This document shows positions 2,577 through 51,273 of a stretch of 63,007 nucleotides of DNA, piece after piece. A program made the translations under genes and the position numbers. Within the stretch, counting starts at the first letter, position 1. The number at the start of each line of letters is the position of its first letter. The notes beneath the pieces are model-generated. The model did not search any database and was not told the DNA's origin. It worked only from the letters and a program-made list of their open reading frames with translations. Source of the DNA: Gammaproteobacteria bacterium (GTDB lineage: Bacteria > Pseudomonadota > Gammaproteobacteria > Ga0077536). The stretch is taken from contig JADLGE010000029.1 in assembly GCA_020849475.1 (NCBI GenBank), positions 1 to 63,007 of the forward strand, read 5' to 3'.

Positions 2577-2604
2577 ACTGCTCAAGCGCCCCTGATGATT
2601 CTGT

Positions 2605-27582: not shown

Positions 27583-27696
27583 TTCACCCTTCCAGCACCC
27601 TCCAGCGCAGTCCAGCTTCTTCCGAAATCTTTCTATTTTTCGCCAAGTTACGTGCCCATGCCTTCCGACGCGATCTGTTGACAGCCTGACCCGGCT

Positions 27697-27730
27697 GACG
27701 GTAGCTTGAACGGTAACTGCCCCAGTTACC
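27697..27730. promoter_or_regulatory. Candidate arm-type integrase or operator sites, left
   Basis: Two GACGGTA / ACGGTAA direct repeats with 13-14 bp phasing, and a perfect inverted repeat GGTAACT-gcccc-AGTTACC (27712-27730), directly upstream of the integrase. A near copy of the direct-repeat pair occurs inside the right end at 53117-53136. This suggests integrase arm sites that may also autoregulate int. Confidence 0.45.
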
Positions 27731-27756
27731 GCCAAAACGCTACAGGAGTTACCGTC

Positions 27757-29010
27757 ATGGCAGGCAAACTCTCCGCGACCAAGATCGAAAACGCAAAGGC
27801 GAGCGACAAGCCCTATAAGCTCACCGACGGGGACGGCATGTACTTGCTGATCACGCAGGGCAAAGCGTCGCAGGATGGCAAATTTAAGCCTGGATCCCAG
27901 AAATGGTGGCGTTTCGATTACCGCTTCCATGGCACCCGACGGACCTTGTCGCTCGGTGTCTACCCGGACGTTTCGCTAAAGGAAGCTCGCGATCGGCTCC
28001 GAAAGGCTCGCGAAGTGCTGGCATCGGGTCGCGACCCGTCCGCCGAACGGCAGCGGGAAAAGGCGAGCCATGAGAAAACCAATACTTTTGAAGCGGTCAC
28101 CAATGAATGGCTCGATAAGTATCGCCCGACCTGGGCGCCAAAGCACACAGAAAAAGTCGAAGGCCGTTTCAAGCAATACGTTTACCCCTGGCTGGGGGCG
28201 CTGCCTGTCAACGGCATCACGGCTGCCGATCTGCTCCGCATTCTGCGCCGGATAGAAGAGCGTGGGGCCAATGAGACCGCCCATCGCGTTCGCCAACATT
28301 GCGGGCAGGTCTTTCGCTACGCCATTGCGACGGGACGCATGGAGACTGACCCGACGCATGGACTACGCGGCGCGCTCGCACCCGCTCAGGTCAAGCACCA
28401 TGCCAGTATCACCGAGCCCAAAGCGATTGGCTTGTTGTTGCATGCCATCGATGCGTACACGGGCTATTTCGTCACCCGCTGCGCACTCAGGCTGGCACCG
28501 CTCGTATTCGTTCGACCCGGCGAACTGCGGAATGCCGAATGGAAGGAATTTGATCTCGAGGCCGCCGAGTGGCGGATCCCGGCAGAGAAAATGAAAATGA
28601 GCCGGCCGCACATTGTGCCGCTGTCGACTCAGGCAGTCGAAATCTTGAAGGAACTCCAGGCGCTGAACGGCACTGGTCGATACACGTTTCCAAGCGTTCG
28701 CAGCCGACTCAAACCCATGAGCGATGCCACCCTCACCAACGCCCTGCGCAGCCTGGGGTATTCGGGCGATCAAATGACTGTGCACGGCTTTCGCAGCATG
28801 GCGAGCACGCGCTTGAACGAACTGGGTTGGCATCGCGATGCTATAGAACGACAGCTCGCGCACATCGAAGGCAATGCGGTGCGTGCAGCCTACAACTATG
28901 CCGAACATTTACCTGAACGCCGCCGCATGATGCAGGTGTGGGCAGATTACCTCGGTGGGTTGCGCAAGAGCGCAAATTTGACGCCCATTTCGCGCATTCG
29001 CGCGGCCTGA
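27757..29010 (+). CDS. Tyrosine-type site-specific integrase (P4-like, DUF4102)
   Basis: A 417-aa recombinase responsible for integration into the adjacent tRNA gene. An N-terminal DUF4102 arm-binding domain (LSATKIENAKASDKPYKLTD) is followed by a core-binding domain (FEAVTNEWLDKY) and the catalytic domain. Catalytic residues are Arg in VRPGELRN, Lys in EKMKMSRP, His-x-x-Arg in VHGFRSMA, His in QLAHIEG and the nucleophile Tyr in AAYNYAEHL. A CAGGAG ribosome site precedes ATG 27757. It appears functional. Confidence 0.95.
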   Translation: MAGKLSATKIENAKASDKPYKLTDGDGMYLLITQGKASQDGKFKPGSQKWWRFDYRFHGTRRTLSLGVYPDVSLKEARDRLRKAREVLASGRDPSAERQREKASHEKTNTFEAVTNEWLDKYRPTWAPKHTEKVEGRFKQYVYPWLGALPVNGITAADLLRILRRIEERGANETAHRVRQHCGQVFRYAIATGRMETDPTHGLRGALAPAQVKHHASITEPKAIGLLLHAIDAYTGYFVTRCALRLAPLVFVRPGELRNAEWKEFDLEAAEWRIPAEKMKMSRPHIVPLSTQAVEILKELQALNGTGRYTFPSVRSRLKPMSDATLTNALRSLGYSGDQMTVHGFRSMASTRLNELGWHRDAIERQLAHIEGNAVRAAYNYAEHLPERRRMMQVWADYLGGLRKSANLTPISRIRAA

Positions 29011-29518
29011 GCGCTGAAACACGGTCGCGATGAGGTGCGGGTAGAAATTTTTTTCTCGCAGCGGCTTCGATACAAAGTGAGCCGCTGGATTCCGTAGACT
29101 TCCGCGATTACGAATATCGCCGTTTTGAGGCGATACGAACTCAAAAAAGCCCCATTGCAATCACAATTCCGGATGGTAACGTTGCGCCCAGTATCGCCTT
29201 GCAGGACCTCTTTTTGTCTTATGCGAATGCAAGACAAACAAGGGTTCTAAAAGTCGGCACAGCGATGTAACCGCGTTGCTGCTTCACAAATAAAAAGGCC
29301 CCGTCAGTGTTGGCGCACTGACAGGGCCGGGTGCCAGAGTTAGGGCTTGGCAGGCCGCTGTAAATTGTCCGTGCCATCCCCTTGACGCTGGGGTGGAAAC
29401 ACGAAGGTATCGATGCCGCGCATGTTGAGATGTGCCCAGTCACAAGTCAACACCGAGTACCGATGTCCGGTAGTTCTCCACCTGGAGCAGCTTTTTTCAC
29501 CAACAGGAGAAAAAAGCC
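29011..29518. other. Non-coding gap after the integrase
   Basis: A 508-bp stretch without a convincing gene. It contains a minus-strand intrinsic terminator (29289-29328) and the ribosome site of the following AlpA-like gene. A minus-strand transcript, perhaps a small RNA, could end here. Confidence 0.45.
29289..29328 (-). terminator. Rho-independent terminator on the minus strand
   Basis: On the minus strand a 13-bp stem GGCCCTGTCAGTG / CACTGACGGGGCC (one mismatch) is followed by TTTTTATTTG. No minus-strand protein gene lies immediately upstream, so the transcript it ends is unknown. Confidence 0.6.
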
Positions 29519-29731
29519 TTGAGTCACTCCAACAGATTGCCGGTTCCCGGCTATTCGCGCGTCCGTGAAATCCTCGATGTATTCCCAGTCAGCCGCAGTC
29601 GTTGGTATGCCGCTGTTGCGGAAGGCCGTATCGCTCCGCCGACCAAACTCGGCGTGCGTACGGCCGCGTGGTCAAACGCCTATCTGAACGAACTGCTCAC
29701 TCGCCTAGAGGCGGGTGAGCACATTCTTTGA
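29519..29731 (+). CDS. AlpA-like excisionase/regulator (left copy)
   Basis: A 70-aa winged-helix protein. The core GYSRVREILDVFPVSRSRWY and the following AVAEGRIAPPTKLGVRTAAW have the AlpA/excisionase layout: a helix-turn-helix followed by a wing, then WSNAYLNELLTRL. Start TTG 29519, preceded by AGGAG. AlpA proteins control integrase expression or excision of P4-like elements. It directly precedes the primase-like gene. Confidence 0.8.
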   Translation: MSHSNRLPVPGYSRVREILDVFPVSRSRWYAAVAEGRIAPPTKLGVRTAAWSNAYLNELLTRLEAGEHIL

Positions 29732-29739
29732 GGCCTGCC

Positions 29740-30189
29740 ATGACTACGCCTGGTCGCGGGTCTGCGAGAGCCTCGCATGCCCGTCCATTGCTTGATCGAT
29801 TGGAAAAAGTGACCGACCGCGGTGGTGGCCACTTTATGGCTTGTTGTCCAGCCCACGATGACCGAAATCCAAGTCTATCGGTGCGTGAAACAAACGACCG
29901 CGTGCTCGTGCACTGCTTCGCGGGATGTAGCGCCGGGCAGGTCGTCGCAGCAGCCGGTCTGTCCCTGGCCGATTTGTATCCCAACTCACCCCCTGCTCAC
30001 GTGTCACCAGTCCCGAAGTCACGACGATTTGATGCACGCGCGCTGCTGCTCATGCTGGCGCACGAAGCGCTCGTCGTCGCCATTGCGGCTGACGACCTCG
30101 CGAGCGGCGAACCCCTATCAGATCTTGACCGGTCCCATCTCAAGGCCGCTGCGGTCCGGATCCGGAAAACCGTAGGGCTCGTGAGATGA
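29740..30189 (+). CDS. CHC2-type zinc-finger protein, primase-like
   Basis: A 149-aa protein. The N-terminal half has a CHC2-like zinc motif, with CCPAHDDR and later HCFAGCSAG supplying Cys, His and the CxxC pair, as in the zinc-binding domain of DnaG-type primases. No TOPRIM catalytic core follows, so it is only the DNA-recognition half. It overlaps the DUF3987 gene by 4 bp (ATGA), suggesting that the two proteins act together in element replication. Confidence 0.8.
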   Translation: MTTPGRGSARASHARPLLDRLEKVTDRGGGHFMACCPAHDDRNPSLSVRETNDRVLVHCFAGCSAGQVVAAAGLSLADLYPNSPPAHVSPVPKSRRFDARALLLMLAHEALVVAIAADDLASGEPLSDLDRSHLKAAAVRIRKTVGLVR

Positions 30190-31775
30190 GCCTGACTGAA
30201 CGCGCGAACGCAGACCTTGCCCGCATCGACCGAGCTTCACGAATGTTGGATGAGGCCAATTTAGAATGCGCGAAATCAAAAGCGCTATCCAAGCCATTTG
30301 CGACAGCGACAGTTGCGACATCTGCGACAGATTGGCCGGCTCCGCTGCCGCTCGAGCGCCACGCCGAGCAACAGTCGCCTTACCCGCTGGATGCGTTGCC
30401 AGACGGCATCGGGGCAGCGGTGCGCGAGTATCAGTCCTACGGACAGCAACCTATGGCACTCGTGGCTTCGTCGGCCTTGGCCGTAGTGTCGCTGGCCGCA
30501 CAAGGTCTCGCCGATGTGGCTCGCGACGATCACCTCACGGGACCGCTATCGTTGAACTTCCTGATGGTCGCCCAGAGCGGCGAACGCAAGACAGCTGCGG
30601 ACAAGACACTAGGTCAGGTCCTCGGCGAATGGGAACGCGAGCGCGCCGACGTCCTGCGACAGGACATCAAACAAAGCCGCGCGTCACTAGAAGCCTGGTC
30701 GACCGAGCAGGAGGGGCTCAAAGCGGCACTCAAAGCAACTTTCCACAGGAAGCCTCAGGAGGCCGAAAAACTGCGCGCCGAACTTGCCGCCCATGCACTG
30801 CAGAAACCACTGGAAGTTTTCGCTCCCAGGCTCCGCTACGAGGACGTGAACCCGCAGTCGCTGGCGTTTCTCTTAGCCACCGGATATCCCTCGGCGGCCC
30901 TGTGGAGCGACGAAGGCGGCATGGTCACCGGCAGTCTCGGCATGGGAAAGGACTCGTTGGTGGGCTTCCTGGCCGCGCTCAATCGGCTGTGGGACGGCGG
31001 CGCCATTCGTCACGACCGCAAGCAGGCGCAGTCCGTCCATCTCGAAGGCCGACGCTTGACCGTCAGTCTCATGGTCCAGCCCGCAGTGCTGGGAGAATTA
31101 TTCGAGCGCAGCGGCGGACTGACCCGTGGCAGCGGCTTTCTCGCGCGATACCTGGTCGCAGCGCCAAGTTCGACGATGGGTACGCGGTTCTATCAGCCAC
31201 CGCCCCATGGAATGCCAGCGCTTGCTGAATTCCATCGAAGAATTCGGGCACTGTTGGATTCGAACTTGCCCGTGGACTTCCTGGGCCGTCTCGCCCCGCC
31301 CATGTTACGCATGTCCCCGGACGCTTTCGCACAGTGGCGTAAGTATCACGATGAAACTGAACGCGAGCTACGACCGCTAGGCGAATTTTCGAGCGTCCGC
31401 GACTTTGCCGCCAAGAGCGCCGAGAACGCCGCGCGTATCGCCGGATGTCTGCACTTGTTCGAAGGTATTCAGGGAGCAATCCAACCGCGAACAATGGACC
31501 AGGGAACTCGTCTGGCCCGCTGGTATTTGCACGAGGCACTGCGCGTACTAAATGCCTTGGATGAACCGCAGGCGTCGAGCGACGCGCGCCTGCTCGACGC
31601 CTGGCTGGCGAAGGTCGGCAATGTTTCGACTCGCGACGTCCTGCGAAACGGACCGAATCCGCTGCGCGACAAACATCGCCGTAATGCCGCAATCGAAACT
31701 CTCTTCGAACATGGTCGAGTGCGTATTGATCGCGACGGGAAATCAGAGAAAATTTTGCGCAATCCTGCGTTGTGA
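30186..31775 (+). CDS. DUF3987 (YfjI-like) helicase/primase-associated protein
   Basis: A 529-aa protein of a family common on mobile elements beside CHC2 primase fragments. The nucleotide-binding loop reads VAQSGERKTAADK, the usual form in this family. A central coiled region (residues about 155-200) and ATPase-like segments (LWSDEGGMVTGS, LTVSLMVQPAVLGE, RGSGFLARYLV) follow. Near the N-terminus a low-complexity ATATVATSAT segment is encoded by TTGCGAC repeats. It is likely the replication initiator or helicase of the island; the activity is inferred. Confidence 0.8.
   Translation: MSLTERANADLARIDRASRMLDEANLECAKSKALSKPFATATVATSATDWPAPLPLERHAEQQSPYPLDALPDGIGAAVREYQSYGQQPMALVASSALAVVSLAAQGLADVARDDHLTGPLSLNFLMVAQSGERKTAADKTLGQVLGEWERERADVLRQDIKQSRASLEAWSTEQEGLKAALKATFHRKPQEAEKLRAELAAHALQKPLEVFAPRLRYEDVNPQSLAFLLATGYPSAALWSDEGGMVTGSLGMGKDSLVGFLAALNRLWDGGAIRHDRKQAQSVHLEGRRLTVSLMVQPAVLGELFERSGGLTRGSGFLARYLVAAPSSTMGTRFYQPPPHGMPALAEFHRRIRALLDSNLPVDFLGRLAPPMLRMSPDAFAQWRKYHDETERELRPLGEFSSVRDFAAKSAENAARIAGCLHLFEGIQGAIQPRTMDQGTRLARWYLHEALRVLNALDEPQASSDARLLDAWLAKVGNVSTRDVLRNGPNPLRDKHRRNAAIETLFEHGRVRIDRDGKSEKILRNPAL
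30297..30330. repeat. 34-bp inverted repeat, left arm (in DUF3987 gene)
   Basis: A run of TGCGACA-type units whose reverse complement is found at 31825-31858 with 32 of 34 bases identical. This arm is translated within the DUF3987 protein. Confidence 0.85.
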
Positions 31776-35972: not shown

Positions 35973-36654
35973 AATATTGATCGAGCTCATTTAGCCGGCA
36001 CGCTGGTCACGGGTTGGTAGAACGGCTTCAATCATCCCGTTCACGGAGGGAGATGTTTTGTTCGCCATGCTCCGCGAACGTTGGCCACTGACACCAACGC
36101 GAAGTAGCCCCGACTCCTCCGGCTTTGCACTCACCGCGCAAACTTCATGCCGGAATGCCATGCCGACAAGCTGCGGTCTCATCGCGCGAACCGCAGATTT
36201 TTTTGGTCAGTTATTGCAGTACGCACCTCCCCGGAGGGAAACTCCTTCCGTTATCTTGTCTATCTTCAGCGTCATCCAAGATGCAACGAATGATTGAGCG
36301 ATCTTGCGCAATCCACTCGAAAACAACTCGATCCCCCCTACCGGTGGCGCCGTCAGAGCAGCTGCAGTAAATCGGCGTCCAATGTGGTCGCGCGGCACCC
36401 GCGCGGGGCACGGTTAGGCTGCGTGCAACCAGTGGATTACGGCCCGTCGACTAATTGGCTCGTTGCACATCTCTCAGCGATTCGGGTCGCACGCCGGCGT
36501 TTCTCGGCGCTAAGGCTGATAGCTCTCATGTACATCGTAAAGAATGCGTAACAGTTGGATCGAACCATTCGGCACGCCCCTTGTGATACTGCATCCAAAG
36601 CAAGCTTGCCGGCGTAGTTCGCCATACTCGGAAATTGAGCCCTGGAGTCCTGTT
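35973..36654. other. Gap with no recognised gene before the HupE-TonB gene
   Basis: About 680 bp. Only short frames without ribosome sites or family similarity are present. It may hold the promoter of the HupE-TonB gene. Confidence 0.5.
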
Positions 36655-39243
36655 GTGTACAGACCAACACTAAATGCGTGTGTCTCACTAGCCATACTTG
36701 CACTGACGCCGGCCATCGCCCACGCGCATTCCGCCGGCGCGGCTGTCGTAAGCTGGCAGGACGGATTCAGCCATCCGCTCCACGGCTGGGACCATTTGGC
36801 AGCCATGGTCGCGGTCGGTTGGTGGGCAGCGCGCCACCCTGGCAGTGCGCGCTGGCAGATCCCTTTGAACTTTGTTGTGGTCATGGCACTGGGTGGCCTG
36901 GTCGGTTTCAGTGGCGCCAAGCTGCCTGGGGTCGAATGGGTGATTGCGGGCTCTGTTGTCGTCTTTGGCCTGCTGGCAGCACGAGCGGTGCGCATGTTGC
37001 CCGCGATGTCGGTCGCGACGGTGAGCTTCTTCGCGTTCTTCCACGGCTTCGCCCATGGTCAGGAAATGCCTGGAACCGGCAGCCTCGTCCTGTTCGGCAC
37101 CGGCTTCATGCTGGCGACCATGCTCCTCCACGGCGCCGGCTTTTTCACCGCGCGCGTGGCCGCACTCAGCATCGCGTGCCTGGCAGTCAATGCGGTGGCG
37201 GACGATAGCGAACTGGTGTCTATGAGTGCCGCAGGGAATAACGGCGACAGTGACCCATCGCAAGTGCCAGAGATCGTAGTAACCGGACGCAGCGACTCAC
37301 AGGTCGGCATCGCAACTTCTGCGTCACAGGGCAATGTCGGCGCGGCCGAGCTGCAATATCGTCCGCTGGTGCGGCCCGGCGAGTTGCTGGAGACCGTACC
37401 CGGCCTCGTCGTCAGCCAGCACAGTGGCGAGGGCAAGGCCAACCAGTACTACCTGCGCGGCTTCAATCTCGATCACGGCACCGACTTCCTTACCCAGGTC
37501 GATGGCGTGCCGGTCAATCTCGCCACCCACGCCCATGGCCAGGGCTGGACCGATACTGGCTTTCTCATTCCGGAGTTGGTGCGAACCATCAGCTATCAGA
37601 AGGGCGTCTACTACGCCGAGAACGGCGACTTCTCCAGCGCCGGCGCGGCCAACATCCAGTACGTAAACGAACTACCGGCGAGCCTCGCGTCCTTCGAAGG
37701 CGGCAACCTCGATTTCTATCGCGCTCTATATGCGTCCTCACGTCCGCTCGGTGATGGCACCCTGCTCTATGCGATGGAAGGCGAATACAACGACGGCCCG
37801 TGGCAGCGTGGTGACCATTACCGCAAGGCTAACGGCGTGCTGCGCTACAGCCAGGAAAGCGGGGAATCGGGCTGGTCGGCAACTTTCATGGGCTACAAGG
37901 CGGACTGGGATTCGACTGATCGAATCGCGCAGCGCGCCGTTGAGCGTGGTGATATCGACAGATTCGGCCTTATCGACCCCTCCGATGGCGGCGACAGCCA
38001 ACGCTACAGCCTGACCGGTGAATGGCATCGCCGCAGTAGCACCAGCGCGACCAAGCTCATGGCCTATGGCTATTACTACGACCTCGATCTCTACTCAAAC
38101 TTCACCTATGTGCTGAGCGACCCCGTGCATGGCGACCAGTTCGAGCAGCCCGATCAGCGCGCGGTGTCGGGGTTCAAGTTCTCGCACACGTTTTTTCATG
38201 CCTTTGGTGCAATGTCGATGGAAACCACCTTCGGCCTGCGGAACCGCAACGATGTCATCAAGAATGGTCTGTTTCTGACAGAGCGTCGTAATCGACACGC
38301 GACGGTGCGCGAGGACGACACGCTCGAAAGCAGCATTTCACCTTACGTCGACAACAATACGCGCTGGACAGACTGGCTGCGCACCACGGCCGGCGTGCGT
38401 TTCGATGCGTTCCGCTTCGATGTCGCGAGCGATCGTGCGGCCAACAGCGGCGCGCGCTGGGCCACCATTGTCAGTCCCAAGGGCGGCATCGTGCTCGGGC
38501 CATGGGCCGCAACCGAGGTGTACCTGAACGCAGGTCTCGGCTTCCACAGTAATGACGGGCGCGGCGTCAACACGGTGGTCGATCCGAATACCGGCACCGC
38601 CGTTGATCGCGCCGTGCCGCTGGTACGCACCTACGGCGCGGAAGTTGGTGCGCGCACCACCTGGCTGCCGGGCTTGCAGAGCACCGTTGCGTTGTGGGGT
38701 CTCGACAGCGATTCAGAGCTGGTCTTCGTCGGCGATGCCGGCACCACCGAAGCCGGCCGGCCGAGCCGGCGTTATGGCGTGGAGTTCGCCAACTACTACG
38801 CCGCGACCGAATGGCTCAAGCTCGACGCGGACTTGAGCTTCTCGAAGTCGCGCTTCCGCGAACATTCGATAGAGGGTGACCACATCCCCGGCTCGGTCGA
38901 GACCGTCATCGCCGCCGGCGCGACGATACACGACCTGCATGGCTTCTTCGGCTCGTTGCGACTGCGCTACTTCGGGCCACGTCCCCTCATCGAGGACGAC
39001 AGCGTGCGCTCCAAGGAGACCCTACTGATCAGTGCCCAACTCGGTTATCAGGTCAACAAGACCTGGAAGGTGGTGGCCGATGTGTTCAATCTGCTTAATC
39101 GCCGCGACAGTGCCATCGACTACTACTACGCGTCGCGACTGCCGGGCGAAGCACCGGGGCCGGACGATGGCGGATACAACGATATCCACTTCCATCCGGT
39201 CGAGCCGCTCAGCTTTCGGCTTGGAGTGCGTGCGACATTCTGA
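36655..39243 (+). CDS. Fusion of HupE-type Ni/Co permease and TonB-dependent receptor
   Basis: An 862-aa fusion. GTG 36655 has a GGAG site and gives a signal peptide ending near PAIAHAHS; ATG 36544 would add 37 residues. Residues about 25-180 carry HupE/UreJ motifs: HPLHGWDHLAAM (HX5DH), FFHGFAHGQEMPG and ATMLLHGAGFF, with about six hydrophobic helices. The last helix, ending NAVA before DDSE (residues 182/183), resembles a signal-peptidase site. A TonB-box-like EIVVTG (206-211), a plug (PGELLETVPGLVVSQH, YYLRGFNLDHGTDF) and a beta-barrel ending in Phe follow. An inner-membrane permease fused to an outer-membrane receptor is topologically odd. Probable nickel or cobalt uptake. Confidence 0.88.
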   Translation: MYRPTLNACVSLAILALTPAIAHAHSAGAAVVSWQDGFSHPLHGWDHLAAMVAVGWWAARHPGSARWQIPLNFVVVMALGGLVGFSGAKLPGVEWVIAGSVVVFGLLAARAVRMLPAMSVATVSFFAFFHGFAHGQEMPGTGSLVLFGTGFMLATMLLHGAGFFTARVAALSIACLAVNAVADDSELVSMSAAGNNGDSDPSQVPEIVVTGRSDSQVGIATSASQGNVGAAELQYRPLVRPGELLETVPGLVVSQHSGEGKANQYYLRGFNLDHGTDFLTQVDGVPVNLATHAHGQGWTDTGFLIPELVRTISYQKGVYYAENGDFSSAGAANIQYVNELPASLASFEGGNLDFYRALYASSRPLGDGTLLYAMEGEYNDGPWQRGDHYRKANGVLRYSQESGESGWSATFMGYKADWDSTDRIAQRAVERGDIDRFGLIDPSDGGDSQRYSLTGEWHRRSSTSATKLMAYGYYYDLDLYSNFTYVLSDPVHGDQFEQPDQRAVSGFKFSHTFFHAFGAMSMETTFGLRNRNDVIKNGLFLTERRNRHATVREDDTLESSISPYVDNNTRWTDWLRTTAGVRFDAFRFDVASDRAANSGARWATIVSPKGGIVLGPWAATEVYLNAGLGFHSNDGRGVNTVVDPNTGTAVDRAVPLVRTYGAEVGARTTWLPGLQSTVALWGLDSDSELVFVGDAGTTEAGRPSRRYGVEFANYYAATEWLKLDADLSFSKSRFREHSIEGDHIPGSVETVIAAGATIHDLHGFFGSLRLRYFGPRPLIEDDSVRSKETLLISAQLGYQVNKTWKVVADVFNLLNRRDSAIDYYYASRLPGEAPGPDDGGYNDIHFHPVEPLSFRLGVRATF

Positions 39244-39534: not shown

Positions 39535-40044
39535 ATGCGAAATCTTCTCGCGCCTCTCTTGATGCTATTGCCAGCACTCGCGCTCGCCGATGCGTCCATC
39601 CAGGACTGTCTGCATGCGGTGACCGCGATTCGACCCGGGAAATTCGTCAAAGTCGAATACCTTGGTGTGACTGACGAGCGCCAAGCGGCCTACGAGATTG
39701 AAGTCAAACCGGCCCGCGGGCGCCACTGGGAATTTGAATGCAGCGCCCGCAGTGGCGCCATTATTGAGATGGAGCAAGAAGTTGAATCGGTCGATGATCC
39801 GCTGTTCAAGGCCACGATGAAGGTCGATGAAAAGCAGGCCGTCGCGACAGCTACCAACCTTTACCCGGGCGAGGTGCAGGAAATCGAATACGAAATCGAT
39901 GCCAACGGGTCACCACGCTACGAAGTAGACGTCATTGATCTGGATTCCATCCAGTTGAAAATCGAGGTCAGCGCAGTGACGGGGAAAATTGAAGAAGTGC
40001 AGATAGAGATGTGGGAGATTGGCGAGGAAGGCACGAGAAAATGA
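39535..40044 (+). CDS. Secreted PepSY-domain protein
   Basis: A 169-aa exported protein. The signal peptide MRNLLAPLLMLLPALALADA is followed by two acidic PepSY-like repeats (about residues 25-95 and 96-165) with the pattern of a charged strand plus SGAIIEME / TGKIEEVQ. PepSY proteins are found near metallopeptidases and TonB-linked metal systems. It is about 290 bp downstream of the HupE-TonB gene on the same strand and may act in the same periplasmic pathway. Confidence 0.8.
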   Translation: MRNLLAPLLMLLPALALADASIQDCLHAVTAIRPGKFVKVEYLGVTDERQAAYEIEVKPARGRHWEFECSARSGAIIEMEQEVESVDDPLFKATMKVDEKQAVATATNLYPGEVQEIEYEIDANGSPRYEVDVIDLDSIQLKIEVSAVTGKIEEVQIEMWEIGEEGTRK

Positions 40045-40839: not shown

Positions 40840-43800
40840 TTGGACATCGACATCTGTGGTTGGCTCGCGGCATCTCATTACGTAAACGAGCTTCTGATCG
40901 GTGGCGCGCGCCGACCATGGCTGCGGCTTGGCGGGTTGCTGGCTATGGCCGTCATCGCAGGCGCGGCCGTTGCGAGTGACGGCAGCATCGCCCCGCAGCC
41001 CCCCGATGCGCTGCGCGCCGGTGGAGAATCCGTGAACGCCGATATCGACGAAATCCTGGTCTCTGGCATCCGACCCGCCTCTGCCAGTCCTTACGGCAAC
41101 CTGACACTGCCCGCCAACGCTAGTCCGTCGCACACCCAACACGTGTCAGGGCAGGAGATCCGTGATTCCCATGCAACCAGCCTCACCGACTTCATGCGCG
41201 ACCATCTGCAGTCGATCTCGGTCAGCGATTATCAGGGCAATCCGTTTCAGGCCGATGTGCAATACCGCGGATTTTCCGCCTCGCCACAGATTGGCTCGCC
41301 CCAGGGCTTGTCCGTATTTCTCGACGGCATCCGGGTCAACGAACCCTTTGGCGATGTGGTGAACTGGGATCTGCTGCCGCTCAATGCGATGCGCAGTCTC
41401 GACCTCGTACCCGGCAATCCGCTGTTCGGTCGCAATACCTTGGGCGGCGCGCTCAATCTGCGCACTCGCAATGGCTTCGAGGACGAAGGCGTGCAAGCGA
41501 GCGTGTCCGGTGGTTCGTGGGGACGCATTCACGGCCAGCTTGCGCTGGGCGGTCAGCAGGGCGCATTGGCCGGCTTTCTGGCCCTTTCCGATTTTCACGA
41601 GGAAGGCTGGCGCGATGATTCGCCGAGCGATGTACGTCAGGGATTCGCCAAGGTCTCACTGCAGCAAGGGCGGCTGAAGGCGGATTTGAGCAGCCTGGTG
41701 GCGGAGAACCGTCTGGTCGGCAATGGTCTGGTGCCCCTTGGGTTGGCCCGCGATGACTACAGCGCGGTCTTTACCTCACCCGACCGCAGCGATATGGCTC
41801 TGCGCCAGGTCAATCTCGAAGGCTTGTTGAGTTTCACCGACCAACTCGCACTCGGTGGCCAGATCTACCGACGCCAGAGCGTGCGCCGAGGACGGAACGG
41901 CGACATCTATCGTGCCTTTGATGACATGAGTTCGACCGTGCGGGGCGCGGAAGCGGGCACCGTAGAGATCACCAATGCGTTGCCGCTGTGCCAGTTCGTC
42001 GATGCGAATCACAATGGCGTGCCAGACGCGGGCGCGCCGCTCAATAATCCGGGCAATGGCGTGGGCATTTGCGACCGTACCGTTGCGGTCGGCGGCGGGC
42101 CGTTTCGCCCGCGCAATGGCAAGGCCGACGGCACCACGCATGTGGCCCAGGACGGCCCCGGTATCGTTACCGGCACGCCGATAGGGACCCTCAACCGCCT
42201 CGATCTCGATCAGCGTGCCAGCGGCGGCAATATTCATTTCGACGTCAACAGCGAACACCACCATGCCATGCTCGGGCTCGCGCTCGATGTGGAATCCGCG
42301 CGCTATTTCAGTCGCTCACGCTTGGCCGATATCAATGCCGCCCATGAGGTCGTGCCCTTCGCGCAGGAGAGTCTCATCGACCCGCTGAACTTCAATCGCT
42401 TCTATGCCGCTTACAACGATGTCACCAACAATCGGTTTCGCGGCACTTCCTCGACCAGTAGCGTGTTCCTGAGTGAAACTTTTTCACCGATCGCCGCCCT
42501 GCATTTCAATCTTGGACTGCGCTACAACTACACCCGGGTGAAGAACAATCTCGGCACACGATTACAATCCGGTTTGCGCGAACTGCACCAGATTAATCCC
42601 TTCGACCCGCGCATGTTCCCGTTCGATATGGTGCTGTGCCCGAGCGCCGATCCTGCCAGCTGCCCGCGCGTACCCAATACAAGTTCCGTTGCCGTGGCAG
42701 TCCGAGACGGCACCGTCGTTATCCCGCCGGACGATCCTACGCAGCATGTGACGGACCTCGGCGGCCATGGCGAGAAGTTTCGTTATCACGCGCTGAACCC
42801 GAACTTCGGGGTGAGCTTCATTCCGATAGAGGGTATGGATCTCTTCGCCAACTACAGCGAGGGCAGCCGCACGCCCTCGGTCGTCGAACTGGGGTGCGCC
42901 CTCGATTCCAAGCCTGCCCATCTCAATCCGAATGAACCGTCGTCGCCGGTAGTGCCGGTGAGTCTTTTGCAGGATCAAGGCGGCTCGTGCACTCTGCCGA
43001 CCGCGCTGTCGGGCGATCCCTATCTGCCACAGATCCGCTCGGTGTCCGGCGAGCTCGGTATACGTGGCTCTACCCGTAATGGCTGGGATTGGAATCTGGT
43101 CGGCTACCGCACCGATATTCACAACGACATCTATTTTGTCGGGGTCACCCAGGAGCGCAGCTTTTTCGACACCATCGACAAGACCCGTCGCGAGGGGCTG
43201 GAACTGGGATTCGGCGGCAAGCGCGGACGCCTCGGCATGCGCTTCAATTACAGTTTCGTGAGCGCGACGTTTGAATCGCCGTTCCACCTTTTCGGTCTGC
43301 GCAACAGTTCTGCGGATTTCGATATCAATGGTGGCGTGCGTCCTGACGTGGTCTATCCCATCGAGCGATTCCTGGAGCCCGATGGCAATCTCACCATTTC
43401 AGTCGACAAGGTCATTCAAACCGACCACCTGACAAAATACGGCTTGTCCACCTATCGCTTCATTAAGGTTGAACCGGGCGACCGCATGCCGGGCGTGCCC
43501 GCGCACAACTTCAATGCCAACCTCGATTTCGATATTACGCCCCGTTGGCGTCTGGGCCTGACCGTCCTGGCCCGCTCATCATCCATTCTTCGCGGCAACG
43601 AAAACAACGATCATCGCGCCGGAGCCGCTGCCCAGGAACCACCGACGCTGTTTGGTGATCTGGTATTCGACAACACTGGCAACGTGGTGGGGGTCCGATT
43701 CAATCCCGACGCGGGCTTTCGTAATCGCCAGCCCTTCGATGCCAAGGGCCAGGTCGGCGGCTACTTCATCTTCAATCTCGAAACAGCCTTCGAGCTGCGT

Positions 43801-44013
43801 AAGGGCTGGACGTTGTCAGCGCGCATCGACAACCTGCTCGACCGGCGCTACTACTCCGCCGGACGTCTTGATGCCAATCCCTTCTCGCCGTCAATCTTCG
43901 GCGCCGTTGGACCTAGTGGCTGGAACTACAATTCCAAGGACTGGAAGCAGACCAGCCTTGTCGCACCCGGCGCACCGCGCGCGGCGTGGTTGGGGCTCGA
44001 CTACCGATATTGA
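40840..44013 (+). CDS. TonB-dependent outer-membrane receptor
   Basis: About 1057 aa from TTG 40840; the exact start is uncertain. A signal-like helix (LRLGGLLAMAVIAGAAVAS) precedes a TonB-box-like DEILVSGIR, a plug domain (SLTDFMRDHLQSISVSD, QYRGFSASPQIG, IRVNEPFGDVVNWDLLP) and a large beta-barrel ending in a Tyr. It is clearly a paralogue of the receptor at 47235: RVNEP-GD-VNWDLLP and NTLGGAL are shared. Its 3' end overlaps the convergent response-regulator gene by 13 bp. Substrate unknown; a cofactor or metal is plausible. Confidence 0.93.
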   Translation: MDIDICGWLAASHYVNELLIGGARRPWLRLGGLLAMAVIAGAAVASDGSIAPQPPDALRAGGESVNADIDEILVSGIRPASASPYGNLTLPANASPSHTQHVSGQEIRDSHATSLTDFMRDHLQSISVSDYQGNPFQADVQYRGFSASPQIGSPQGLSVFLDGIRVNEPFGDVVNWDLLPLNAMRSLDLVPGNPLFGRNTLGGALNLRTRNGFEDEGVQASVSGGSWGRIHGQLALGGQQGALAGFLALSDFHEEGWRDDSPSDVRQGFAKVSLQQGRLKADLSSLVAENRLVGNGLVPLGLARDDYSAVFTSPDRSDMALRQVNLEGLLSFTDQLALGGQIYRRQSVRRGRNGDIYRAFDDMSSTVRGAEAGTVEITNALPLCQFVDANHNGVPDAGAPLNNPGNGVGICDRTVAVGGGPFRPRNGKADGTTHVAQDGPGIVTGTPIGTLNRLDLDQRASGGNIHFDVNSEHHHAMLGLALDVESARYFSRSRLADINAAHEVVPFAQESLIDPLNFNRFYAAYNDVTNNRFRGTSSTSSVFLSETFSPIAALHFNLGLRYNYTRVKNNLGTRLQSGLRELHQINPFDPRMFPFDMVLCPSADPASCPRVPNTSSVAVAVRDGTVVIPPDDPTQHVTDLGGHGEKFRYHALNPNFGVSFIPIEGMDLFANYSEGSRTPSVVELGCALDSKPAHLNPNEPSSPVVPVSLLQDQGGSCTLPTALSGDPYLPQIRSVSGELGIRGSTRNGWDWNLVGYRTDIHNDIYFVGVTQERSFFDTIDKTRREGLELGFGGKRGRLGMRFNYSFVSATFESPFHLFGLRNSSADFDINGGVRPDVVYPIERFLEPDGNLTISVDKVIQTDHLTKYGLSTYRFIKVEPGDRMPGVPAHNFNANLDFDITPRWRLGLTVLARSSSILRGNENNDHRAGAAAQEPPTLFGDLVFDNTGNVVGVRFNPDAGFRNRQPFDAKGQVGGYFIFNLETAFELRKGWTLSARIDNLLDRRYYSAGRLDANPFSPSIFGAVGPSGWNYNSKDWKQTSLVAPGAPRAAWLGLDYRY

Positions 44014-44708
44014 TCTGCCGGTAACACATCAATAATGCCATGACGTATGGCGAGTTTGGTGAGTTCGGTTGCGTTGGCCACATTCAACTTGCGCTTGGTC
44101 TGGGTCAGATAATTGACCACTGTCTTATAGTGGATGGACAGCCGCGCGGCGATTTCGCGCGGATCGACACCGCTGGTCGCCAGCGACACGATCTCGAATT
44201 CCCGCGACGACAAATGCTCGAATGGATTCGATTCGCCGCGAAACTGCGTGATCACCATGCGTTGCGCCATGCCGTTGCTGATGTAGGGCTTGCCGTCGGC
44301 AACGGTGCGGACCGCAACGACCAGCTCCTCAGGGGCCGACGCTTTGGAAACGTAGCCCGCTGCGCCTGCCTTCATCGCCTGCATGACGAACACGGTCTCA
44401 TCATGAACGCTGACGACCAGAATGCGCGCTTCTGCACTCACCGCCTTGATACGCTGGATAGCGGTGATGCCCGACATCTTCGGCATGGTCAGATCCATCA
44501 CGATGACGTCTGGATTCAGTTCACGAAAACAGTGGTAGCCGGCTTCGCCGTTGTCGGCTTCAGTGATAGTGCCGCACCAGTCTTGCTGGGCCAGCAAGGT
44601 CTTGAAGCCCACGCGTACGATGGCGTGGTCGTCTATGAGCAGGATACTGATAGGGTTGTGGTTCGACACGGACAAGTAGGCGGGCGCTGGAGCAAGAGTG
44701 GCATTCAT
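44001..44708 (-). CDS. LuxR/NarL-type response regulator
   Basis: A 235-aa two-component regulator. The receiver domain has the acidic pair in LLIDDHAIV, phospho-acceptor Asp in VIVMDLTMP, Thr/Ser in VVSVHDE and Lys in GYVSKASA. The C-terminal LuxR helix-turn-helix reads LSSREFEIVSLA, then REIAARLSIHYKTVVNYL. The nearby NarX-like kinase (49906-51264, same strand) is the likely partner. The setting is like ExaD-ExaE regulation of a PQQ ethanol dehydrogenase. Confidence 0.92.
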   Translation of the reverse strand: MNATLAPAPAYLSVSNHNPISILLIDDHAIVRVGFKTLLAQQDWCGTITEADNGEAGYHCFRELNPDVIVMDLTMPKMSGITAIQRIKAVSAEARILVVSVHDETVFVMQAMKAGAAGYVSKASAPEELVVAVRTVADGKPYISNGMAQRMVITQFRGESNPFEHLSSREFEIVSLATSGVDPREIAARLSIHYKTVVNYLTQTKRKLNVANATELTKLAIRHGIIDVLPADQYR

Positions 44709-44796
44709 TCTAGCGCCTTCCCATCGCGCTGCGGATGGGAAAGCTGCCTGTGAAATCAGGGATAAACTCCTGCCTTGCGAGTCGCTGGCGCAGGGT

Positions 44797-46917
44797 TCAA
44801 GGCCGGCTCAAGGCCTTGGCGCGACTGAGTACATATTGGCGGACCATCTCCGTCTGCTTGGGATCCAGCCATTTCGCGAATGCCATCATGCCGTTCGCAA
44901 CCAGGGCGCCATCGTGCACGATCCCTTGCCACTGCTCGGGAGCGGTAAGCGCGGCCGCATAGCGCAGGTCTGGAATGACATTGCCACTGACCGAATTCTC
45001 GCCGTGGCAACGGGCGCAATGAGTGAGAAAGTGCTGTTTGCCGAGCTCTAGAGCGGCTTCGTCTGCTGTGACCGCCGGGAGATGGGCAGGTGCCGCTCGC
45101 GCCACCGTGGGCGCGGGTGGCAGTGTCGCTTTGCCATCGAGGGCGAACACCAACATGCGACTGCGATTCGGCGCAAGACTATGCGACGCCAACTGCCCGG
45201 CAGCCAGGCCCAGGGCTGTACCTGAACCGGCGCTCACCGCGATGAACTGGCGGCCCGCCACCGCATAGCTTATCGGTGGCGCATGCACACCCGTCTGAAC
45301 ATCCGAACTCCACAGCTTCTCGCCCGTGTCCGCGCGATAGGCGTTTAACTGACCTCGGTTGGTACCCTGCAAGACCAGATTGCCTGCGGTCGCCAGCGCG
45401 CCGCCATTCCATACGTCGTCGAGATGAACGCGCCAGCGCGGCGCCTGGGCGACGGGATCCCAGGCCGTCAGGCTGCCACTGAAAGCTTTGATGACCTTGG
45501 CGGCATCGGCATCATTGGCCGGCAAGGCGCCAGCATGGAAATTGATGCCCAGATTGAAATTCGAATCAGAACGCTTGAACTGCTTTTCGTCCTCATACAG
45601 AAACGCCAATTCCTGGGTCGGCACATAGACCAGTCCGGTCTTCGGACTGAAAGCCATGGGATGCCAGTTGTGTCCGCCGAAAGGTCCGGGCTGCACGACC
45701 TGGCGATCGATATCGTAGCGAGCATTCGGTGTCTCTACCGGGCGACCGCTTTCCAAATCCACATGGCTGGCCCAGGTGGTCTTGACGTAGGCGTCGGCGC
45801 CCAGCAGTTTGCCGGTTTCACGATCGATGACGTAGAAAAAGCCGTTCTTTGGCGCCTGCATGAGCACCTTGCGCGTTTTCCCCCGCCAATTGAGATCGGC
45901 CAACATGATGTGCTGGGTGGAGGTGAAGTCCCAGGTCTCGCCCGGGGTGGTCTGATAGTGCCAGACGTATTCGCCGGTATCCGGTCGCAGCGCAACGATG
46001 GAACTCAAGAACAGATTGTCGCCGCCGCCGGGACTGCGCAGCCGCTGGTTCCACGGCGAGCCATTGCCGGTGCCGATGTACAGCAGGTCGAGCTCAGGGT
46101 CGAAAGCCATCGAATCCCAGACCGTGCCGCCACCGCCGCCTTTCCACCATTCTCCATGCCAGGTCGCGGCGGCTTTCTGCATTTCCGGTGACTCGAAGCC
46201 ATCGGCCGGATTACCCGGCACGGTGTAGAAGCGCCACACCATCTTGCCGCTCTCGGCATCGTAGGCACTGATATAGCCCCGCACGCCGAACTCCGCGCCG
46301 CCATTGCCGATGATCACTTTTCCTTTCACGACCCGCGGCGCACCGGTGATTGTATAGGGCTTGCTCTGATCGACTGTGACGGTCTCCCACACGAGTTTGC
46401 CGGTCTTGGCATCCAGCGCGATAAGGCGGCCATCGATGACACCGACATAAACCTTGTCGCCCCAAACCGCCGCGCCGCGATTGACGACATCGCAGCAGGC
46501 GTAAAAGCCCTGCTTGCGATCGGCCTTGGGATCGTATTTCCACAATAGCTTGCCGCTCGCGGCATCTATCGCATAAACGATGCTCCACGCTGCGGTGGTG
46601 TACATGACACCGTCGACGACGATGGGCGTTGCTTCGACACCGCGCTTGGAATCGAGATCGACGTACCACGCAAGCTTGAGACGGTCGATGTTTTCCACAT
46701 TGATCTGGTCAAGTGGACTGAAGCGCTGTTCGCTGTAAGTACGGCCATAACTCAGCCAATTCGCGGGCTCACTGTCTGCGCCTGCAATCCGTTCGTCAGT
46801 GACCGGGTGGGTCGCGGACTCGCCGGACGCAGGCTGAGCCGACAGCCTGTCGCCATGGCATATCGCCACAATCAAAACGACAAATAGAACAAACACGCGT
46901 TGGCAGGCGTAGAACAC
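44797..46917 (-). CDS. PQQ-dependent quinohemoprotein alcohol dehydrogenase (type II)
   Basis: Periplasmic enzyme that oxidises alcohols with pyrroloquinoline quinone and passes electrons to its own heme c. It has 706 aa from GTG 46917 (GGGGAG site, signal peptide FVLFVVLIVAICHG); an upstream ATG at 47022 is less likely. PQQ-domain marks are the vicinal disulfide CC in FYACCDVVNRG (141-142), Glu209, Asn285 and catalytic Asp330 in ETWDFT. Two residues later there is Thr, not Asp, which suggests calcium rather than lanthanide. The C-terminal cytochrome c domain has CARCH near residue 634, with a probable Met ligand in ANGMMAF. Confidence 0.95.
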   Translation of the reverse strand: MFYACQRVFVLFVVLIVAICHGDRLSAQPASGESATHPVTDERIAGADSEPANWLSYGRTYSEQRFSPLDQINVENIDRLKLAWYVDLDSKRGVEATPIVVDGVMYTTAAWSIVYAIDAASGKLLWKYDPKADRKQGFYACCDVVNRGAAVWGDKVYVGVIDGRLIALDAKTGKLVWETVTVDQSKPYTITGAPRVVKGKVIIGNGGAEFGVRGYISAYDAESGKMVWRFYTVPGNPADGFESPEMQKAAATWHGEWWKGGGGGTVWDSMAFDPELDLLYIGTGNGSPWNQRLRSPGGGDNLFLSSIVALRPDTGEYVWHYQTTPGETWDFTSTQHIMLADLNWRGKTRKVLMQAPKNGFFYVIDRETGKLLGADAYVKTTWASHVDLESGRPVETPNARYDIDRQVVQPGPFGGHNWHPMAFSPKTGLVYVPTQELAFLYEDEKQFKRSDSNFNLGINFHAGALPANDADAAKVIKAFSGSLTAWDPVAQAPRWRVHLDDVWNGGALATAGNLVLQGTNRGQLNAYRADTGEKLWSSDVQTGVHAPPISYAVAGRQFIAVSAGSGTALGLAAGQLASHSLAPNRSRMLVFALDGKATLPPAPTVARAAPAHLPAVTADEAALELGKQHFLTHCARCHGENSVSGNVIPDLRYAAALTAPEQWQGIVHDGALVANGMMAFAKWLDPKQTEMVRQYVLSRAKALSRP

Positions 46918-47234
46918 TGACGACTCTCCCCGGGTTAATCGATTCGCTCTGCAAGTCCGGATCACAAAACGGCGATCGTTCCTTGCACAGCGAGAAAGCC
47001 GCGCCATGCTTTCATTGCGCACTAGGCATCGACAAGTGTCGATTCACCACTCGTGGATTATTCCTGGGGAGAAACTCACCAAATTCCTGATGCGACGGAA
47101 TGTCGCACTAGAACATTACGGTAAGAAAGAAACATGGCAGGCGCTGACGAAACGAACTGCGCGGCGCAGGCGTTGGCCTGGGATGCGCCGGCCGCACTGA
47201 CTAACTTGCTGCTGGCGAGCGTGATCGCTTGTGC
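46918..47234. other. Intergenic gap between TonB receptor and PQQ dehydrogenase genes
   Basis: 317 bp in front of the dehydrogenase on the minus strand. An ATG at 47022 is in frame with the dehydrogenase, but the segment it adds is not hydrophobic. A promoter controlled by the neighbouring two-component system is likely; I cannot point to its elements. Confidence 0.4.
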
Positions 47235-49721
47235 TTACAAGCGCAGTCGCACACCGACCCAAGCGGCTCGCGGTGCGCCAGCACCAATGAACAGCGGACG
47301 CTGATCGGCGAGCCCAGGCAACACCTCCTCAGGAGATTCGCCCAGCAATCCAAAACTTTCGTAGTCGGTGTCAAACACATTGCTGACGCGAGTGAATACA
47401 TCAAGATGCTTGTTTACTGCGTAAGACGCGCGCAGGTTGACCAGCGCATAGCCGTCGAGCTGCGCGAGCTGGTTGGACTCGTCGCCTCGCAGATATTGTC
47501 CCGAGAAATATTGCAAATCGAGGCCAAGGGTGAGCTGCCACGGTGTCCGGTAATCGGTGCTGAATTTGAATTGGTGAGCAGGAATGCCGGGAATGCGATC
47601 GCCGGACCGCACCGCCAACTCACCGTTGGCATCGGCCAAGGGATGATTCGGGCTTTGGACCTTGAAATTGTCCTCGAAGGTGGCGAGCACGTAGCTGTAG
47701 GCGATCGCGTAATCGAGCGCACCAAGGGTGACCGCGAAAGCCGATTCAAATCCCTCCCGTTTCGTTTTATCGACGTTTGCAAAGAGCCCCGTGCCGCGGC
47801 CCGTGGTCTGGAAGATGATGTCGTCATGATTGACGGTGCGGAAATACCCTAGACGATGACGAACGACACCGAGTTCCCCGCGTACGCCAAACTCGACGCT
47901 CTTCGCTACTACCTGCTTGAGTTCGGGATCGGCCAGGAAGGCATTCGGAAGCCGGCACTCGAAATTGACGTCCTCCGGATCTTCACCGCGCGCGATAGCA
48001 GCAGCCCGCGCGCGGTCGAATATCTGGTCATTACACGACAACTCAATCGGCGTCGGCGCACGCGAGGACTCGCTGTAGTTCGCATAGACGCTATTCCTGT
48101 CGGCGATTTCAAATGTTGCACCGGCACTGGGGTTGAAACGCGAATAGCCGTGGCTACCGTTCAATTCCGGTCGCGCCGCCGAGCGGTCGCTGATCTTGAC
48201 CCGCGTGTCGTTATAGCGTCCGCCGGCTGTCACGGTAAGACGCGAGGTCAGATTGAACGAGTCCAGCAGATAGATACTCCAGGTGCCGTTGCTGGTGTCG
48301 ACATTGGTTGCTTCACGGCTTAAGAATGAGCCCAGACCGAGGCCCGCCGTGCTGCGTGTCACCGGGTCGATTTCGGATAACTCGGTGGCCGAATTGAAGC
48401 GCGCTTCGCCGCGCGCATAGCCCGCACCGACGATCAGGAAATTACCGCGGCCGAACAAATCCCGTTGGACCGAGCCTTGCACGTCGAGGCCATAACTTTG
48501 CTGACTGCGCGAACTGATGTTGTTGATGGCGGCGTCGCTTATACGGCGCGTGCCGGTCAGACTCGAGGTCAGGTCGTCCAGATTAAACGGTTCGCCGCCG
48601 GGCCCTACCAGACCATTCAGCGCGGCCTGGAGTGCCGCCGGGTTGGCTGCGCCCAGCGCATTGTTCGCGCAAATATCCTCGTCGTCCAAGCCGACCGCAC
48701 CGAGCGCGTCCTCGTCGATTCCTTCCAGCAGGAATTGCCCACTGCCAAGTTGGCAGGCCAGAAAATCGGATGCGTCACCGTTGAACGACGAAGTCTCGAC
48801 ATCGCGATAAAAGCCGGTGGTCGCGAGTTTGATGCCTTCTCCGACATCATGCCCACCGTTTAGCGTGAATCCATACACCTCGTTCTCGGTGATGTCCGGC
48901 GCAGTAAAAATAGCCTCGCGATCAACCGCCACCAAGCCAATGGGCGACGATCCATTGCCAGTCAAATCGGTGTTGCCGTATTGAAAACCCAAATCCAGAG
49001 TCGTTCCGGCGCCACGATAGCTGGCAGCGCCGTAGACATTCACCGCATTCGAGTCCGAGAGATCGCGCCAGCCGTCTTCGCCGAAATAATCAACGTTGAC
49101 GTAGTAGCCCAGGGTGCCGTTGTTGCCGCCACTCTCGGCGGAAGTCTCTGCACGCCCCCACGAGCCACCCGACGCTTCTGCTTCCTGACCCGTGTAATTG
49201 AAGCCATTCTTCATTTCTATCGAAAGAGCACCGCCCAAGGTATTGAGACCGTAGAGCGGATTACTGCCGCCGATCATTGTCATGCTGTGTACTGCCGACT
49301 CTGGGAGCAAATCCCAGTTGACCGCGTCGCCGAGCGGTTCGTTGACGCGGACGCCGTTCTGGAAGACCGCGATGCCCTGCGCGAGACCGAGTAGCGGCGA
49401 GGCGGTGTAGCCACGATATTGCACGTCGGGCTGCAGGGGATTGCCCTGTGCGGAATTGATGCTGACGCTGCCGAGATGCGCGCCGAGATAGTCGGTCAGA
49501 TCGCTGGACTGGGCACGCGACAGTGCGTCCGCATCGGTGGACTGAACGGTAAACGGCAGGGTATCGGCCTTGAGGCGCGCAGCGGCCCCGGGTGCCGGCG
49601 CCACCACCACGATTTCATCGTCAAATCCCGCGCCTTCGGCCGCGTAAACCGCTCCAGCGCTGATTCCACAGGACAGGCCACTGGCCGCCACGACGATGAG
49701 AACGCGCCAGTTCGAAACCAT
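47235..49721 (-). CDS. TonB-dependent outer-membrane receptor, paralogue next to PQQ dehydrogenase
   Basis: 828 aa from ATG 49721, which gives a signal peptide (VSNWRVLIVVAASG to AVYAAEG). A TonB-box-like DDEIVVVAP is followed by a plug (DLTDYLGAHLGSVSINSAQG, VQYRGYTASPLLG, VRVNEPLGDAVNWDLLP) and a beta-barrel ending VRLRL. It is paralogous to the receptor at 40840. It lies between the kinase and dehydrogenase genes on the same strand. Uptake of PQQ, a metal or the alcohol substrate is possible; none is shown. Confidence 0.93.
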   Translation of the reverse strand: MVSNWRVLIVVAASGLSCGISAGAVYAAEGAGFDDEIVVVAPAPGAAARLKADTLPFTVQSTDADALSRAQSSDLTDYLGAHLGSVSINSAQGNPLQPDVQYRGYTASPLLGLAQGIAVFQNGVRVNEPLGDAVNWDLLPESAVHSMTMIGGSNPLYGLNTLGGALSIEMKNGFNYTGQEAEASGGSWGRAETSAESGGNNGTLGYYVNVDYFGEDGWRDLSDSNAVNVYGAASYRGAGTTLDLGFQYGNTDLTGNGSSPIGLVAVDREAIFTAPDITENEVYGFTLNGGHDVGEGIKLATTGFYRDVETSSFNGDASDFLACQLGSGQFLLEGIDEDALGAVGLDDEDICANNALGAANPAALQAALNGLVGPGGEPFNLDDLTSSLTGTRRISDAAINNISSRSQQSYGLDVQGSVQRDLFGRGNFLIVGAGYARGEARFNSATELSEIDPVTRSTAGLGLGSFLSREATNVDTSNGTWSIYLLDSFNLTSRLTVTAGGRYNDTRVKISDRSAARPELNGSHGYSRFNPSAGATFEIADRNSVYANYSESSRAPTPIELSCNDQIFDRARAAAIARGEDPEDVNFECRLPNAFLADPELKQVVAKSVEFGVRGELGVVRHRLGYFRTVNHDDIIFQTTGRGTGLFANVDKTKREGFESAFAVTLGALDYAIAYSYVLATFEDNFKVQSPNHPLADANGELAVRSGDRIPGIPAHQFKFSTDYRTPWQLTLGLDLQYFSGQYLRGDESNQLAQLDGYALVNLRASYAVNKHLDVFTRVSNVFDTDYESFGLLGESPEEVLPGLADQRPLFIGAGAPRAAWVGVRLRL

Positions 49722-51264: not shown

Positions 51265-51273
51265 ATCTCGCAC

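Follow-up and report, generated by a model that had tools for sequence, protein, structure and literature searches.

One frame across two membranes: a HupE-type permease fused to a TonB receptor, probably a polyprotein with an internal signal peptide

Introduction

Can a single uninterrupted gene supply two proteins that belong in different membranes? The question is raised by a 63,007-nucleotide contig of a gammaproteobacterium (JADLGE010000029.1, assembly GCA_020849475.1; this whole stretch is hereafter the window), in which one stop-free frame (36544..39243, + strand) joins a HupE/UreJ permease, expected in the inner membrane, to a TonB-dependent receptor, expected in the outer one. A first-pass annotation of this DNA had proposed that the sixth permease helix doubles as the signal peptide of the receptor, and that cleavage there releases two layers of one nickel/cobalt uptake route. 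We give a probability of about 0.7 to the reading in which permease and receptor are fused in frame, the last helix serves as receptor signal peptide, and signal peptidase I cuts after Ala182 to yield one inner- and one outer-membrane protein. If cut as predicted, the product would be a bacterial polyprotein whose parts lie in different membranes, with a fixed 1:1 synthesis of two import layers.

Results

The fused gene and its conservation

The predicted protein runs from GTG 36655, a likely start codon, to the stop at 39243, and counts 862 residues. Pfam recognises HupE_UreJ (PF04955, residues 15-171, 152.6 bits for a cut-off of 23), Plug (PF07715, residues 221-331, 45.9 bits) and the TonB barrel (PF00593, residues 389-813, 66 bits), the last two also above cut-off. 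The open frame and these matches bear out the initial description of one continuous frame with a HupE/UreJ domain, both its metal motifs and a full receptor; neither stop nor frameshift is present in the frame near 37200. The features of the gene are as follows.

36644..36647, + strand: GGAG, likely ribosome-binding site, 7 nt upstream of GTG 36655 (sequence)
36655..36726, + strand: residues 1-24, signal peptide at the N-terminus with a cut predicted at AHA/H25 (sequence)
36727..37200, + strand: residues 25-182, predicted processed form of the HupE/UreJ permease half (PF04955, AlphaFold2 helices)
36772..36795, + strand: HX5DH motif, residues 40-47 (sequence)
37039..37065, + strand: FHGxAHGxE motif, residues 129-137 (sequence)
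37147..37200, + strand: residues 165-182, made of TAR, h-region and AVA, the final helix of the permease and predicted internal signal peptide (sequence, conservation)
37192..37203, + strand: predicted signal peptidase I site, A180-V181-A182/D183 (sequence, conservation)
37201..37290, + strand: first part of the predicted mature receptor, an acidic linker and a TonB-box-like stretch (sequence)
37315..37647, + strand: receptor plug domain, residues 221-331 (PF07715, 45.9 bits)
37819..39240, + strand: receptor beta-barrel, ending RATF (PF00593, AlphaFold2 barrel)

The residues H40, D46 and H47 of HX5DH, and H130, H134 and E137 of FHGxAHGxE, are invariant in 31 aligned fusions; we take HX5DH and FHGx[AV]HGxE to be the motifs of the HupE/UreJ family. 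On the receptor side, VPEIVVTG begins at residue 204, 21 residues past the predicted cut, and resembles what we take to be the TonB-box consensus. The 50 fold matches listed for this half are TonB-type receptors, the closest solved fold among them being PqqU (9c4o, 18% identity).

The fusion is genuine and no sequencing or assembly artefact, because most close homologues share it and because a genome of the same genus (G384) carries a frame that runs through the same junction as far as the contig end. In the homologue search, 7994 of at least 7995 scored candidates were significant; among the best 120 listed, PF04955 and Plug occurred together in 112 (query included), and the other 8 were receptor alone. 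Within the order of the window genome, 2 of 36 genomes have the fusion and 2 others the receptor only. In the order of Methylotuvimicrobium buryatense, matches occur in 124 of the 201 genomes and extend over nearly the full fusion length in at least 21, and M. buryatense 5G itself has the fusion (L011). The first-pass annotation had allowed for the halves being separate genes in all homologues; they are not, and the same fusion is found in other genomes, the congener included. We also compared the 80 best receptor loci in named genomes, a set ranked by likeness, so that its counts measure no prevalence: ten are fusions, seven from Methylococcaceae, two from Nitrosomonas and one from Verrucomicrobiia.

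Two further candidates were discarded. The 984-residue frame of G202, considered as a second type of HupE fusion, is a long frame that occurs by chance, and downstream of it lies a standalone HupE that adjoins urease genes (read as urease by eye). G174, considered as a separate HupE plus receptor, is most likely a truncated fusion whose HupE leaves the contig after ...SSADAQQ; exbD and tonB lie just upstream.

A predicted cleavage site at the junction

Between the two halves of the window protein lies a signal-peptide-like segment with small residues at -3 and -1; residues 165-184 read TAR-VAALSIACLAVN-AVA/DD, where the slash marks the predicted cut. Judged by comparison with standalone HupEs, the canonical last HupE helix has been exchanged for this signal-peptide-like segment ending AVA/DD. 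NAVA-DDSE had been picked out at first pass as a good signal peptidase I site, and A180-V181-A182/D183 does fit the -3/-1 rule.

We asked how general this is. The 158 fused frames available gave 130 distinct junctions, window included, all sharing kinship, so that the counts that follow do not stand for independent events. An arginine is found in the n-region of the junction helix in 126 of the 130, and the +1 residue is Q, E or D in 119. Under an explicit -3/-1 rule, 125 have alanine at -1, two have G or S, and three fail. By eye, the three failing junctions and one of the G/S cases (P0011) do have an alanine there, preceded by a charged residue; the other G/S case (L003) ends in Gly. Shuffled junction segments fitted the rule 25.3 times on average and 35 times at most in 200 shuffles, against the 125 observed, and at the equivalent place of standalone HupEs none of 34 fitted it. 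That fusions keep the site and standalone HupEs lack it supports the idea that the sixth helix doubles as a receptor signal peptide cut at AVA.

The site at the junction is kept where the N-terminal one is not. Among the 125 of the 130 fusions that could be judged, 78 have an N-terminal AxA-His (set by hand for the window) and 47 do not, 44 of these being without any AxA there; the junction alanine is present in all 47, which are largely kin and do not amount to 47 separate events. The PF04955 alignment ends at position 159-160 of 179 in fusions, and at 174-179 in most standalone HupEs listed. In AlphaFold2 (AF2) models, the last helix of a standalone HupE is confident (residues 172-196, block pLDDT, the predicted local distance difference test, 90-97), and the tail of the window fusion (residues 161-190) drops from a pLDDT of 62 to 25; the two underlying AF2 alignments differ, so that this contrast is only suggestive.

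The predicted topology agrees with export of the receptor half. The first 24 residues are predicted to be a cleavable signal peptide, which would leave the permease N-out; an alignment of 30 standalone HupEs shows H25 as invariant, with A22 and A24 nearly so. The AF2 helices of the permease half span residues 45-58, 65-85, 93-110, 116-137 and 144-180. An N-out permease with six helices would have its C-terminus in the periplasm, as had been suggested; the predicted N-terminal signal peptide, with its cut AHA/H25, is an addition that would account for the N-out start.

Origin of the fused permease and exchange of its cargo

In a tree of HupE domains that includes 34 standalones, the 28 fused permeases and the three HupE-X permeases group apart from these in a single clade, with a support of 100/100. 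The simplest reading of this clade is that the permease form with a signal-like last helix arose once. Among standalone receptors that nest with fused ones in the receptor tree, P0048, P0067 and P0087 begin with signal peptides similar to the fused helix (FNAAAFALACAICSAAQA vs RLAALAFACLLGSSADA).

What stands behind this helix has changed. In L019, L147 and L148, the receptor comes from a different clade and the permease from the fused one. In P0137 and P0243, whose permeases also fall in the fused clade, the same helix is followed by a MetA-like barrel (PF13557, 16.8 and 18.2 bits, below the cut-off of 22). The junction helix of this pair aligns with the signal-like N-terminus of HupE-free relatives of the barrel, among them P0244 and P0245, and the mature sequence of these relatives begins in register with the predicted cut: of the 22 HupE-free relatives listed, 13 were aligned with the pair, and a Q stands at the mature start in 11 of these. 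In Methylomonas-type loci, the fused-type permease bears an uncharacterised, apparently exported domain in place of the receptor. Some 200-280 uncharacterised residues follow the same signal-like helix in L007:9836-11308, L010:8505-9959, P0171 and P0266, with a recurring motif PDIN(H/Q/N)(T/S)PG...GVG(L/V)TSPP; in L007 the permease frame overlaps the receptor gene. Two proteins, P0246 and P0247, have two HupE domains per chain with a long linker between them.

With changing cargo behind a constant helix, the HupE-signal unit resembles a permease equipped with its own launcher for cargo to be exported. Taken together, the exchange of cargo and the in-register mature start appear to us the strongest support for cleavage short of experiment. 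As a wider scenario, to which we incline with somewhat less confidence than to the cleaved fusion itself, the last helix would have been replaced once by a cleavable signal peptide, and the resulting unit set ahead of receptors from two clades, of a small non-TonB barrel and of an uncharacterised exported domain, one gene thus giving matched inner- and outer-membrane layers of nickel/cobalt import, split by signal peptidase I.

Which metal is transported

The transported metal is likely nickel or cobalt, because nikR, urease or hydrogenase genes lie next to relatives of the receptor and because a cobalamin riboswitch precedes one fusion. Of the 80 receptor loci, 11 have nikR nearby, ten of them within 222 bases or overlapping (stop-to-stop frames) and one at 1659; the identity of nikR is confirmed by Pfam in L080 and assigned by similarity in the other loci. 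A hydrogenase large subunit gene is near the receptor in L030 and L072, urease accessory genes in L036 and L076, and a separate HupE directly adjoins the receptor in L022 and L062, two loci which are not among the ten fusions. In L144 a cobalamin riboswitch lies directly upstream of the fusion. That locus has three such riboswitches, at 5654-5842 (-), 2397-2601 (-) and 1-102 (-), one directly before the fusion and another ahead of a further receptor from the same family.

The receptors themselves are uniform in their candidate ligands. E243, E246, H256, D273, H274, D277, H294 and H631 are identical in 105 of 105 receptors, 11 of which are nikR-linked, and H847 is the same in 104 of them; the histidine set is identical in nikR-linked and fused receptors. 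The constancy of H256, H274, H294 and H631 suggests one kind of ligand. The nickel/cobalt route proposed at first pass is therefore supported by the gene context of relatives, and nothing at the window locus names the metal.

In the window genome (95.8% complete), there is a urease cluster with its own UreJ, and searches for NiFe hydrogenase, CobN and CbiC gave no match. As urease is present and none of these, nor NikR (see below), was matched, nickel for urease is the likelier use in this genome, and a nickel urease would likely be the user of the imported metal.

Proposed mechanism and alternative explanations

In the mechanism that we favour, an N-terminal signal peptide would bring the chain to Sec and be cut before His25. 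Five helices would then insert, and helix 6 (TAR-VAALSIACLAVN-AVA) would re-open the translocon, sending the remainder to the periplasm. LepB would cut AVA/DD, HupE keeping its C-terminus at the periplasmic face and the receptor being freed for the beta-barrel assembly (BAM) machinery. The receptor, with TonB energy, would bring Ni(II)/Co(II), perhaps chelated, into the periplasm, and HupE would pass the metal to the cytoplasm.

Several observations weigh against this account, in addition to the kinship of the junctions given above. For the fusion, genome G562, one of those in the M. buryatense order that match over nearly its full length, has a TAG inside the matching stretch. In the receptor tree (86 rows) the fused label changes 8 times, at least 5 of them forced, and standalone receptors nest among fused ones, so that the join must have been lost or re-made, receptors being freed or re-joined. 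For the metal, the ten fusions in the set of 80 loci have neither nikR nor urease or hydrogenase genes nearby. The riboswitch precedes a fusion in L144 only, out of 26 scanned loci, of which some have little upstream sequence, two are cut by a contig end, and two (L010 and L145) come from the same genome. A riboswitch scan of the window found none, and a NikR_C profile search of the window genome gave no match. Lastly, CopC is near three of the ten fused loci (L006, L009 and L010) and also near L143, a PepSY gene is near the fusion in L004 and in the window, and a methanol-dehydrogenase-family gene is near it in L142.

These last neighbours point to the alternative of a fusion cleaved in the same way and serving another metal, either copper or a lanthanide destined for dehydrogenases of the XoxF type, in which case the PepSY protein would act as a LanP-like carrier. 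Besides the PepSY genes, which lie downstream of the fusion in both cases, it would account for the PQQ (pyrroloquinoline quinone) dehydrogenase of the methanol/ethanol family in L142, for a MoxY-like kinase in the window, and for three dehydrogenase genes of the window genome that read WDYD, a motif which we presume to speak for a lanthanide. DUF6702, a domain treated as a metal binder in PMC12537917, is moreover beside 19 of the 80 receptors. However, reported HupE substrates are nickel and cobalt (PMC2667541), relatives are linked to nikR, urease, hydrogenase and the cobalamin riboswitch, and nikR-linked and fused receptors share the same histidine set. The PQQ dehydrogenase of the window reads WDFT, not WDYD, if we have the meaning of these motifs right; CopC is in a few fused loci, and DUF6702 is found in one receptor subclade outside the fusions. 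Copper or a lanthanide is thus a possible metal, which we hold to be unlikely. The DUF6702 cluster of Oxalobacteraceae (e.g. L048, L050), in which a standalone receptor goes with a DUF6702 protein, and with an M1 peptidase in 18 of 19 loci, may be a different metal route.

Other alternatives concern the chain itself. The HupE half could be a spent permease, retained only as an export leader for barrels, as the varying cargo behind a constant HupE-signal unit and the loss of the canonical last helix would allow; this seems improbable to us, the HX5DH and FHGxAHGxE residues being invariant in the 31 fusions, and a plain signal peptide being enough for export, as in P0048 and P0067. Somewhat more improbable still is an uncut single chain, bridging both membranes or held in the inner one. 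The frame is open and without a stop, as such a chain needs, but the linker from the predicted cut to the receptor model counts 9-38 residues (median 28, 127 fusions measured), or some 32-133 angstroms when fully stretched, and the periplasm is usually 150-200 angstroms wide. With linkers shorter than the periplasm, an uncut chain could hardly keep both halves in their own membranes, and it offers no visible reason for the conservation of the -3/-1 rule. A receptor made separately from an internal start, the long product being incidental, would fit an ATG (MLLHGAGFFTAR) that in the window lies in frame ahead of the last helix; a Met at that place is absent from most of the 31 aligned fusions, other internal starts not having been sought, and we consider this very improbable. 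We therefore return to the polyprotein cut by signal peptidase I as the most likely product of the gene, because of the kept site, its absence from standalones, the single permease clade, the swapped cargo, the register of the mature start and the length of the linker.

Neighbouring genes in the window

One neighbour stands close behind the fusion.

39535..40044, + strand: acidic PepSY protein with a signal-like N-terminus (PF03413), 291 nt past the fusion stop

In Methylobacter (L004), a PepSY homologue begins 67 nt after the fusion, and the downstream PepSY protein is a possible partner of the fusion system. PepSY proteins include the lanthanide binder LanP (PMC12482762).

Further on (40840-51273) lie two more TonB receptors and the PQQ alcohol dehydrogenase, a quinohaem enzyme that reads WDFT, together with a regulator of the LuxR type and a histidine kinase that has a LapD/MoxY domain; in L142, the fusion is beside a regulator similar to this LuxR-type one, in addition to the methanol-dehydrogenase-family gene. 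On the other side (27506-31775), genes for a tyrosine integrase, for a DnaG-type zinc ribbon and for DUF3987 come after a tRNA gene. This is probably an integrative element; no flanking repeat of at least 20 was found around it. Genes for B12-dependent proteins, methylmalonyl-CoA mutase and a B12-binding radical SAM (S-adenosylmethionine) protein, are found at 58286-61861, and as CobN and CbiC were not found, the window genome probably imports corrinoids.

Discussion

The fusion is real and conserved. As far as comparison of sequences can tell, its product is most likely a polyprotein for transport across two membranes, divided by an internal signal peptide. Such a protein would show a route from transmembrane helix to signal peptide, give annotators a way to spot hidden outer-membrane cargo behind permeases, and suggest nickel or cobalt as the ligand for a large family of TonB receptors so far unassigned. 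The existing names of the matches are HupE, TonB-dependent receptor and, in one case, HupE with "cobalamin receptor", and give no hint of two proteins from one gene. Among the titles and abstract openings listed in literature searches, which covered few subscription journals, none describes a HupE-TonB receptor fusion.

Among known systems, one with the same principle is FbcH of Bradyrhizobium, a cytochrome b/c1 precursor cut by signal peptidase. Like the fusion, it has a polytopic membrane protein and an exported protein in one chain, split at an internal signal; unlike it, both products stay in the inner membrane, whereas the second half of the fusion is an outer-membrane barrel. The receptor half belongs to the same family as the NikR-linked TonB receptors, which are predicted nickel receptors; these are encoded by separate genes, whereas the window genome has a fused gene and gave no match to NikR. 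The lanthanide receptor LanA of M. buryatense 5GB1C is also a TonB receptor, and strain 5G of this species carries the fusion; the main text of PMC12482762 does not mention HupE.

On the permease side, HupE/UreJ proteins are described as nickel and cobalt transporters, in two subgroups (PMC2667541). HupE of Rhizobium leguminosarum (PF04955) resembles the permease half by its Pfam match, by both motifs and by a signal peptide followed by His. In the fusion, however, the last helix is a signal-peptide-like segment followed by a receptor, and the permeases form a separate, long-stem clade. N-terminal metal-binding domains fused to HupE/UreJ-2 are reported in PMC12537917. This Anglerase-HupE/UreJ-2 arrangement likewise combines a HupE-type permease with an exported metal-binding part and has an N-terminal His after the signal; its exported part is N-terminal, its domain is PF13795 rather than PF04955, it has no receptor, and the passages of PMC12537917 that treat it describe no cleavage between the parts, whereas in the fusion presented here the exported part follows the permease and is most likely cut from it.
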